Assembly (NCBI RefSeq): GCF_000023985.1
Contig: NC_013156.1
Coordinates: 918,363-982,362 of the forward strand
Direction of reading: 5' to 3'
DNA from: Methanocaldococcus fervens AG86
Lineage (GTDB): Archaea; AGJL01; Methanococci; Methanococcales; Methanocaldococcaceae
Length of the DNA stretch: 64,000 nt
Shown here: one piece after another, positions 51,707 to 54,470 of the stretch
How positions within the stretch are numbered: the first letter of the stretch is position 1
Layout of the letters: every line of letters begins with the position of its first letter
The notes under the pieces: generated by a model
Told to the model about the DNA's origin: nothing
Database searches by the model: none
The model's input: only the letters and a program-made list of their open reading frames with translations
Made by a program: the position numbers and the translations under genes

Positions 51707-52359
51707 GTTTCCACCGATAATAATCATGAATAGGTAGTTTCGAATTTTTGTTTTAACTGTATTATATACATTTCGAAAAATCGAACAATAGATTCAATTA
51801 ATTATTTATTAACTTAAATATTTGACCATATATTTTACAATCGAATTTTAAAAAATATTGTGAATAAAACAATAAAATTAAAAAATAACATGAATCAAAT
51901 AATATTTTGTATATCATAGAGAATCACAATTCCTAGAAGAAAACTTGAATAAAAATAAAAATAATATATAAATTATTCTAATAAAATAAAGTTAATTTTA
52001 ATTCTTCTCATGAGAATTGCTGAAATATATGAAAAATAAAATAACGTGAATCAAAAATTATATTACATAAAAAACTATGAATCAAAAATTATTAGTAAAT
52101 TAACAATATATCAAAACTATTTAAGATCAACAATTAAAAACAAAAAAGAAATATAAAACAGAAATAAATAAATACATGCCATGCAAAAACATATACAAAG
52201 AGATAAATCTTCAAAATGTCAGCAATATTGCAATGAAACATTGGTGGTTAAATCCACCTCATGAATCAAAAGTTTTATAAACAATTTTAACGAATATAAT
52301 TGAACATTGATAAAATAATAAAATAAAAACAACCCATATAAAAAAATAAGGTGTCATTT
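51707..52359. other. Gene-free AT-rich region with repeats (origin-like)
   Basis: No gene is seen. TGAATCAAA occurs four times in one orientation: 51891, 52047, 52078 and 52262, the middle two extended as TGAATCAAAAATTA. TCGAA motifs lie at 51740, 51773, 51781 and 51841. There are palindromes TTCTCATGAGAA (52005-52016) and GCAATATTGC (52222-52231), and a GGTGG/CCACC hairpin at 52243-52258. The position beside an Orc-like gene and the AT content support a replication-origin role. Promoters for the Orc-like and winged-helix genes must also be here. Confidence 0.6.
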
Positions 52360-52890
52360 ATGGACAGATTGCCATACGAAATAGTATCCACCATATTCAG
52401 AAAGGCTATTTTGCATTATGTGTTAATACGTGGCACGACCTATCCACAATCATTATCAGAAAATTTAAATATATCAAAAGGTCTTTCCAGCTCTTTTTTA
52501 AGATTGTGCTCAGCACTAAACATAATGAAAAGAGAAAGGGTAGGTCATAAAGTTTTGTATTCATTCACTTCAAAAGGATTGGCGATATTAAAAAGATTAG
52601 CTCCAGAAATATTTGATTTGAGTTTTTCGAATGTTTTCGAACGATTACCTAAAAAGAAAATTGCAACCAAGTATTATCCAATAGATAAGATTGGATTTGA
52701 AATCAAATGGAAGGAGGATAAACTCGGAGGAATGACATTTTCATTCTTCGATTCTAATGGGGAGCATTTAGGAGACGTTTTTAGAAGTAACAAAGGATAT
52801 TGGTGGTGTGTCATCTGCCAGAGTGATTCCTGTAAACATGTCGATTATCTGAAGAAGTTCTACAATACATTGAAAAATAAGAATCAATGA
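52360..52890 (+). CDS. Winged-helix protein with C-terminal zinc-site motif
   Basis: About 176 residues. The first ~90 form a winged-helix DNA-binding domain (TYPQSLSENLNISKGLSSSF, RERVGHKVLYSFTSKGLAIL). The end has a CVICQSDSCKHVDYLKKFY zinc-type motif resembling a SWIM domain (CxxC...CxH). It is flanked on both sides by repeat-rich DNA and faces away from the Orc-like gene, so it may regulate or bind the origin; this is inference. AAGGTGTCATTT precedes ATG 52360. The homolog in M. jannaschii is MJ0773 (from memory). Confidence 0.75.
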   Translation: MDRLPYEIVSTIFRKAILHYVLIRGTTYPQSLSENLNISKGLSSSFLRLCSALNIMKRERVGHKVLYSFTSKGLAILKRLAPEIFDLSFSNVFERLPKKKIATKYYPIDKIGFEIKWKEDKLGGMTFSFFDSNGEHLGDVFRSNKGYWWCVICQSDSCKHVDYLKKFYNTLKNKNQ

Positions 52891-52891
52891 C

Positions 52892-52923
52892 TTTCGAGTT
52901 TTCGAGTTGCATGTATGTATATG
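52892..52923 (+). repeat. 32-bp inverted repeat, left arm
   Basis: The 32 bases beginning TTTCGAGTTTTCGAG and ending TGTATGTATATG are the exact reverse complement of 53238-53269. The arm starts two bases after the stop of the winged-helix gene. It contains a tandem TCGAGTTT-like pair and an internal TGCATG-type stretch. Its partner lies 314 bp away. Confidence 0.95.
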
Positions 52924-53237
52924 GCATTGGAATGGGTAAGATTTTTTCGATGGCTAAATTATCACAAAAATAAGATAGCGGATAGTATGACCTATTTTGT
53001 ATATTGAACAATTAATGTTTAATCTTTTCGTTGTTATTTATCATTTTTTATTTTTTATTTTTAATGTAACAATTTTTTAACATTATTTTTTGCAAATGTA
53101 TAATAAAATAACAAATTATAAACTTAAAAAATAAAAATTTACATGTTTTTACATATATAGGGAAAAAAAGTATAATAATACAACGATTGTGTTTGTGATA
53201 TTCACAACAACAGTTTATCGTTGACCCAGGAATTTTG
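52924..53237. other. Very AT-rich segment framed by the 32-bp inverted repeat
   Basis: About 314 bp with no convincing gene; short frames on the reverse strand are cysteine-rich and lack a ribosome site. Base composition is extremely A+T-rich, with runs such as TTTTTTATTTTTTATTTTT near 53045-53063, as expected of a DNA-unwinding element. TTTTCGATGG at 52943 and TTTTCG at 53027 are related to the TCGAA motifs seen on both sides. A replication origin or a mobile/invertible segment are the main possibilities. Confidence 0.55.
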
Positions 53238-53269
53238 CATATACATACATGCAACTCGAAAACTCGAAA
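53238..53269 (-). repeat. 32-bp inverted repeat, right arm
   Basis: Begins CATATACATACATGCAACT and ends CTCGAAA; perfect match in reverse to 52892-52923. The next bases differ on both sides, so the identity is exactly 32 bp. A related but imperfect TCGAAAATTCGAAAA occurs at 53419-53433, inside the end of the downstream reverse-strand gene. Confidence 0.95.
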
Positions 53270-53408
53270 ACCCTATATGAAATTGATGTTTATGTTTATT
53301 CCTTAAAATGTTGATTTCTTGTCAAAAAAGAAAAAATGGTTTTGTCATAACTTTACACAACCAATAATTATTAACACTACACCGAGGGTTAGTGTGATTA
53401 ATCTATTA
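53270..53408. other. Gap between inverted repeat and winged-helix gene end
   Basis: 139 bp of AT-rich sequence without a gene. A small hairpin (ACACTA 53374-53379 with TAGTGT 53390-53395, loop containing CCGAGGG) lies just beyond the 3' end of the reverse-strand gene at 53409 and could be its terminator. Confidence 0.35.
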
Positions 53409-54470
53409 TTATATATTCTTCGAAAATTCGAAAATCTGTATATTCCATGGCACATTATCTAATAGAAAAATGGAAAACCAACTAAGGTAATTATTTTTAG
53501 ATTTTTTAATAAGTTCTAAAAGTATTTTCCTGTTTAACTTTATTTTGAATCTAATTTTATTTTTATATCTGATTTTTGTTAGTATTCCTAATTCAACCAA
53601 CTCATCTAAATACCTGTATAGAGTTGATAATTTGTAATCAACCCTGTAGCAAATATCCTCAACTTTGAACTTTCTTAGCTTTACTATAGCTTTAACCAAT
53701 TTTCGATATTTCGAATCTATTATATATGGTAGAATCTTAAGCCATGGGATCTTTAACTGCCTAAGATTTTTTATCTCTCTTTTTGAATGCCTTAAAATTA
53801 AATATATTACATCTAAATTTCCATTTGTTATGCTTAGAAGATACTCTGCAACTTTATTGCTTATGTAATAGCCATGAGCCTTTGCAAAGTATTTTATTGA
53901 TGCTTTTACGTTTAAAATTCCATCTGAGAAAATTTTTGCAATTTCTCTATGACAATCAATTGGATATCTTATTACAACACTTAAATTGCTTTTTCTTAAC
54001 TCTTTAACAAACTTTATAAAACTTTTTTTATAATGCCATTTTCTTATGTCGTGGATGTCAAATACAATTATTGGATTTAAAACTTTTAATAGGGAAATTG
54101 ATTTTCCAATAACTTTTCCAAACTCCCATTTTCTTATATTTTTAAATAAATCCCCTATTCCTCTATACCATGCCTTTTTAGCTTTATAGTATTTATCAAA
54201 TTCAATTTTATCATTAATGTATTCCAAAAGATTCTTTAACCAATTGGCTTTTTCATGATTTTTAAATAGATAATATTTGTCTTTAATTTGGTAGACAATC
54301 TTTGATATAGTCTTTTTTAAATTTGGTGTTACTAGAACTCTTATTATTGGTATATTATTGATTATTTCAAAACTTCCATTTTCATCTAACTTTAACAAAT
54401 TCCCTCTATCCGTTGGAATTAAATACAATCCATTTAAAAATTCTTCTGGAACAGCTTTTATTATTTTCAT
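53409..54470 (-). CDS. Winged-helix protein with degenerate ATPase-like core (unrecognised)
   Basis: 353 residues, lysine-rich. Residues ~150-165 (NPIIVFDIHDIRKW) look like a Walker B strand, and KVIGKS near residue 118 is a shortened P-loop-like piece. VAEYLLSITNGNLDVIYLILR resembles the lid of Orc/STAND ATPases, and the C-terminus (KFKVEDICYRVDYKLSTLYR ... LVELGILTKIRY) is a winged helix. I therefore suspect a decayed AAA+ relative of the Orc-like protein, lacking a working ATP site. It shares ATGA with the cbiL stop, so it is translationally coupled to cbiL. Function unknown. Confidence 0.6.
   Translation of the reverse strand: MKIIKAVPEEFLNGLYLIPTDRGNLLKLDENGSFEIINNIPIIRVLVTPNLKKTISKIVYQIKDKYYLFKNHEKANWLKNLLEYINDKIEFDKYYKAKKAWYRGIGDLFKNIRKWEFGKVIGKSISLLKVLNPIIVFDIHDIRKWHYKKSFIKFVKELRKSNLSVVIRYPIDCHREIAKIFSDGILNVKASIKYFAKAHGYYISNKVAEYLLSITNGNLDVIYLILRHSKREIKNLRQLKIPWLKILPYIIDSKYRKLVKAIVKLRKFKVEDICYRVDYKLSTLYRYLDELVELGILTKIRYKNKIRFKIKLNRKILLELIKKSKNNYLSWFSIFLLDNVPWNIQIFEFSKNI

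Follow-up and report, generated by a model that had tools for sequence, protein, structure and literature searches.

How chromosome replication begins in Methanococcales was called "an intriguing unknown" in a 2014 review, which described no recognisable Orc1/Cdc6 in the order (PMC3984812). An origin was predicted for M. jannaschii in 2004 (Zhang & Zhang, Extremophiles 8:253, as cited in PMC5333045 and PMC4164010) and has only been predicted (PMC5333045), and Ori-Finder 2 lists an ORB motif for Methanococcaceae (PMC4164010). The locus described here bears on this question: in the window (the whole 64,000-nucleotide stretch of Methanocaldococcus fervens AG86 DNA that was analysed), repeated boxes, a gene for a putative DNA-binding protein and an AT-rich block framed by an inverted repeat lie upstream of an AAA+ ATPase gene (Table 1), and a first-pass annotation had called this region a probable replication origin. 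We asked whether the chromosome starts to replicate here, and which elements of the locus would take part.

Strand skew was measured at fourfold degenerate sites only, with the coding-strand effect removed, in a 47% sample of the host genome (a chromosome of 1,485,061 bp which, with one more contig, makes 1,507,251 bp in total). Corrected in this way, keto skew had its minimum at 970,982 (about 52.6 kb in the window), on a gene, and G–C skew at 972,301 when open reading frames of at least 120 aa were used; the maxima lay 0.47–0.48 of the circle from the minima, and no permutation in 2000 or 5000 gave as extreme a G–C or keto range (keto, 0/5000). The bootstrap 95% interval of the keto minimum ran from −32 to +66 kb around the locus, and the G–C minimum moved 53 kb, to 1,024 kb, with a cut-off of at least 100 aa. 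Because of this shift, the resolution of the skew is tens of kilobases, and it cannot tell whether the array, the inverted repeat or both form the start site.

The first-pass annotation had proposed cumulative GC skew as a check. Raw GC skew (p = 0.51) and raw purine skew did not turn significantly in the host genome, probably because coding-strand bias dominates; raw keto/amino skew did so (p = 0.0005, minimum at 940 kb), and it is in its coding-corrected, fourfold-site form that the proposed turn appears at the locus. The G–C minimum of a genome taken to be that of M. jannaschii (25% sampled) fell 4 kb from the corresponding locus, with a range test that was not significant (p = 0.18), and that of a Methanococcus-type genome (21% sampled) fell 20 kb from it (range p = 0.033), where G–C skew pointed to the locus and T–A and keto skew did not. 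From the skew, the synteny and the published prediction, we consider it very likely that the chromosomal replication origin is located here; the call of a probable origin has gained support from the corrected skew turn and from order-wide conservation of the repeats.

Table 1 Features of the candidate origin locus, with positions given in the window
Feature	Position	Strand	Basis
MJ0774-type AAA+/ArsR-type winged-helix ATPase, candidate initiator, 409 aa	50477–51706	−	Domain profiles, orthology
TTTCG box P, directly 5′ of ATPase TATA box (51760–51768)	51771–51785	−	Sequence, comparison across order
ORB box 1, degenerate, TGAATAAAA	51861–51869	+	Sequence, alignment
ORB box 2, TGAATCAAA	51891–51899	+	Sequence, alignment
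ORB box 3, TGAATCAAA	52047–52055	+	Sequence, alignment
ORB box 4, TGAATCAAA	52078–52086	+	Sequence, alignment
ORB box 5, TGAATCAAA, just 5′ of the TATA-like TTTATAA of the MJ0773-type gene	52262–52270	+	Sequence, alignment
MJ0773-type protein, ArsR-like winged helix and zinc-type motif, 176 aa	52360–52890 (ATG 52360)	+	Profile, model
Inverted-repeat arm L, TTTCGAGTTTTCGAG + GCATGTATGTATA	52892–52923	+	Sequence, comparison
AT-rich block, candidate unwinding element, 22% G+C, core 15%	52924–53237		Composition
Inner inverted motif, left copy, TTATCACAA	52959–52967	+	Sequence, comparison
Inner inverted motif, right copy, TTGTGATATTCACAA	53193–53207	−	Sequence, comparison
Inverted-repeat arm R1, exact reverse complement of L	53238–53269	−	Sequence, comparison
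MJ0772-type protein, C-terminal winged helix, 353 aa	53409–54470	−	Profile
Third TTTCG box R2, overlapping the 3′ end of the MJ0772-type gene	53419–53433	−	Sequence, comparison

The ATPase is 98% identical to the product of a gene at 695,227–696,453 of a 1,664,970-bp chromosome, which we take to be that of M. jannaschii; this gene is presumably MJ0774, and the conserved neighbours agree with the orthology proposed earlier. The order mptA–MJ0774–MJ0773–MJ0772 is common to the genus, with the exception of M. infernus. Walker A (GTKGIGKS) and Walker B (LIDEAD) motifs, together with matches over the cut-off to the AAA, ATPase_2 and AAA_16 profiles, identify an AAA+ protein, and the C-terminal domain matches HTH_5 (ArsR; 4e-12), so the gene was rightly described as AAA+/winged-helix. 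At 69–98% identity, with a mean column identity of 83%, its conservation across Methanococcales is exceptionally high. The label 'Orc1/Cdc6-like' stands for the AAA+ domain with its Walker motifs but not for the family: the ATPase scored 40.9 bits against the Orc1/Cdc6 profile TIGR02928 (cut-off, 181.3), and the Cdc6_C winged helix (PF09079) was not among its domain matches. Judged on these profiles, it fails as a member of Orc1/Cdc6. It weakly matches the Orc/Cdc6 chains 7jgr and 2v1u, and its AlphaFold model, built from four sequences, was poor (pLDDT 44). None of the 36 Methanococcales genomes compared had an Orc1/Cdc6 protein over the TIGR02928 cut-off, and three control genomes passed, in keeping with the earlier remark that a standard Cdc6 is missing. 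One draft genome (G034) has an in-frame stop (TAA) within the ATPase gene, either a draft error or a real lesion.

The intergenic region between the ATPase and MJ0773-type genes holds the first DNA element. Four same-direction repeats within 380 bp had been reported here: these are four of the 34 exact copies of TGAATCAAA in the 1.5-Mb genome, a cluster with a chance of about 2e-6 of arising anywhere in it, and a fifth, degenerate box (TGAATAAAA), missed in the first reading, completes the array. The TCGAA sites also noted are indeed clustered, with 16 on either strand in 51707–53408 against 0.71 expected (more than twentyfold), a count reached by only 0.12% of windows. All five boxes point the same way, share the consensus TGAA(T/C)(C/A)(A/T)AA and form, with their flank, the reverse complement of the Ori-Finder 2 Methanococcaceae motif TT[TA][GT]ATTCA[TC][GA]AT.., giving the locus the conserved recognition-box array of an archaeal origin.

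Comparing the repeats between species had been suggested as a further check, and the boxes proved to be conserved across genus and order. They align throughout the genus, and, among the 25 genomes in which the array and inverted repeat were examined, 20 kept four to five boxes (three in G022) in register at offsets of 0, 30.5, 186.5, 217 and 400 bp (about 0/30/186/217/400; tolerance ±3 bp), with a mean of at most about 2 for random placement. Few boxes were in register in G013, G034, G035, G019 and G020. Methanococcus-type genomes keep the register with the box altered to TGAATATAA, and box pairs are nearly confined to the locus genome-wide. We read the offsets as approximate multiples of 31 bp (0, 1, 6, 7 and 13), that is, of three helical turns.

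The second element lies on the other side of the MJ0773-type gene. Arms L and R1 are complementary at 32 of 32 positions with 314 bp between them, just as the perfect 32-bp inverted repeat had first been described. The intervening block has 22.0% G+C against a genome mean of 32.2%, placing it at the 1.4th percentile of 314-bp windows, and its inner 200 bp have 15%; 'extremely AT-rich' therefore suits the core but does not set the block apart, as the G+C content of the first intergenic region (19% over 653 bp) is equally low. Inverted arms around such a block make it a candidate unwinding element, and arms were present between MJ0773 and MJ0772 in 25 of 25 genomes, following a pattern of a TTTCG[AG]-type double box and then a ATGTATGTATA-like stretch. 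They usually stand 335–357 bp apart (328–330 bp in three Methanococcus-type genomes) and are degenerate in some genomes (G030 and G019, for example, in their left arm). Of 30 positions, arms mismatched at 3.8 within a genome and at 6.2 between genomes (0/5000 permutations); by this comparison, the two arms co-evolve, changing in concert. In 13 genomes the double box TTTCGANNTTTCGA hardly occurs outside the locus, and the reversed control gave few matches. The inner TTATCACAA/TTGTGATAA pair is present in Methanocaldococcus and Methanotorris-like genomes, and R2 usually lies 152–175 bp past R1 in most species outside Methanococcus.

Two observations stand apart from this pattern. G017 has its arms at a distance of 609 bp, which would fit an insertion of some 270 bp. 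A lone TTTCGAGTTTTCGA occurs roughly 28–42 kb from the origin in the host (999,781), G001 (1,160,103), G003 (656,069) and G006 (1,419,680); the distal copy 28 kb away was considered as part of the origin and set aside, being inside an aminotransferase coding sequence and taken as incidental.

The gene between the two elements had been listed as a second DNA-binding gene, and its product does have a predicted ArsR-like winged helix along with an invariant Cys/His zinc-type motif, WC..CQ....C.H (W-C-x2-C-x4-C-x-H). Its AlphaFold model was of moderate confidence (pLDDT 60), and a fold search recognised only an ArsR-like winged helix. The MJ0772-type protein has no Walker A motif, and 4 of the 13 members compared weakly match the lid domain of Hda; it is possibly a degenerate AAA+ protein. 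A paralogous relation to the ATPase was rejected, as profile comparison found the winged helix only. The draft genome G008 has an in-frame stop (TAG) within its MJ0772 gene, again a draft error or a real lesion.

MJ0774, MJ0773 and MJ0772 are all absent from eight genomes of one genus-level group (G021, G024–G028, G031 and G032), of which four are at least 96% complete. One of them, G028, consists of one contig (1,504,113 bp) with a completeness rating of 99%, which makes a gap an unlikely reason for the absence. TTTCG double-box clusters and box pairs were absent from all five genomes of this branch that were tested, and none of its genomes had an Orc1/Cdc6 protein over the cut-off. Both DNA elements and the three genes are thus lost together in one branch.

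In a genome that we take to be M. infernus, the array, MJ0773, the inverted repeat and MJ0772 lie together at 105 kb (99–112 kb) and the ATPase gene lies at 297 kb (294–303 kb), about 190 kb from the origin elements, at a site that has neither boxes nor the inverted repeat. As this gene lies away from the origin elements, the ATPase gene does not mark the origin; as the array stays by MJ0773 without it, the array is not simply the control region of the ATPase gene. The G–C minimum lay at a distance of 21 kb from the inverted repeat, as against 213 kb for the ATPase gene, a position that is a hint only: the skew range was not significant (p about 0.8), too weak for this genome to serve as a decisive natural experiment, and we dropped it as such.

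We hypothesize, with a probability of roughly 0.6, that the origin is bipartite, with a phased initiator array and an inverted-repeat-flanked unwinding block on either side of MJ0773. In its first part (51.77–52.27 kb), the spacing of the five same-direction boxes at near-multiples of 31 bp would place bound proteins on one face of the helix. The second part (52.89–53.27 kb) would act as a two-fold symmetric unit, its arms each made of a TTTCG double box and GCATGTATGTATA, with the inner TTATCACAA/TTGTGATAA motifs and the AT-rich core inside them. The MJ0774-type ATPase, possibly with MJ0773 and MJ0772, would assemble on these sites, the assembled complex would melt the AT-rich core that the arms enclose, and MCM would be loaded in both directions. 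A TTTCG box lies in the ATPase promoter and box 5 in that of the MJ0773 gene; from this we speculate that the system is autoregulated, in that the ATPase may bind the TTTCG boxes and MJ0773 the array boxes.

It seems rather unlikely that the origin lies here but is limited to the ATPase gene and the box array, as in the prediction published for M. jannaschii, the inverted repeat being regulatory or transcriptional. Paired TTTCG boxes near TATA-like sequences could, in one form of this explanation, drive short inward transcripts or control the neighbouring genes. That would suit the TTTCG box found directly 5′ of the ATPase TATA box in nearly all genomes of the order that have the gene at the locus, the TATATAA-like sequences that follow the box in R2 and in the Methanococcus arms, and the identity of the published ORB motif with the array box. 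However, the Methanocaldococcus arms are without a good BRE/TATA, Rfam showed no known RNA family in the region, and the near-constant arm spacing, the concerted arms and the nested inner pair are more readily explained by a symmetric nucleoprotein complex than by a pair of promoters.

Less probable still is a partition (centromere-like) function for the inverted repeat, beside the origin and bound by MJ0773. Partition sites are commonly near origins, and the MJ0773 model and profile match ArsR-like folds that include the pNOB8 centromere-binding protein AspA; yet AspA is one of many such matches, confidence in the model is moderate, we noted no ParA-type gene immediately alongside in the window and, to our knowledge, known partition sites do not resemble an AT-rich core set between inverted arms. 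We give very little credence to the suggestion that there is no origin here at all, and that the locus is a conserved regulatory region of an unusual ATPase and two winged-helix proteins, where the skew turns by coincidence and for another cause. The non-significant M. infernus range test would accommodate this, as would the conflicting or inconclusive data noted for the order in reviews (PMC4588119, PMC3984812), but the host skew turns here and makes the opposite turn half-way round the chromosome, and the M. infernus array keeps its place by MJ0773 without the ATPase gene.

Building on the bipartite origin, we tentatively propose, as a possibility short of even odds, that a lineage-specific three-protein system (MJ0774, MJ0773 and MJ0772) acting on a rigid bipartite origin serves as an alternative to Orc1/Cdc6–ORB, and that one branch has dispensed with this system entirely and begins replication in another way. 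Defined sites and three conserved candidate proteins make the long-unclear initiation of Methanococcales testable at the bench, and the branch without the module, a knock-out provided by nature, would tell whether these archaea can replicate in the absence of any known initiator.

The location of the M. jannaschii origin and the ORB box were already published and are not new here. The oriC predicted in 2004 reportedly spans 694,540–695,226, an intergenic stretch beside the same ATPase gene, and is said to cover the first intergenic region only. Our boxes agree with the published (DoriC) motif, in reverse complement, and the fixed spacing, the inverted repeat, the link to MJ0773 and MJ0772 and the shared loss are additional. 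A search of the open literature turned up nothing on how the array is spaced, on an inverted repeat conserved throughout the order, on the linkage of the three genes or on the loss that genes and elements share.

With Orc1/Cdc6 origins of other archaea, the locus shares an AT-rich region, repeated boxes, inverted boxes around an AT-rich core and an adjacent AAA+/winged-helix gene. It differs in its candidate initiator, which scores far below the family cut-off and carries a winged helix of the ArsR type, and in having two box families, with the five array boxes all in one direction. Bipartite origins are known in bacteria (Helicobacter pylori and Bacillus subtilis), in which two box clusters flank a gene and one contains the unwinding element. 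The arrangement proposed here is similar in placing two clusters on either side of a gene, with the candidate unwinding element in one of them, but the initiator branch and the box sequences are different, and the gene between the clusters is MJ0773 rather than that of the initiator.
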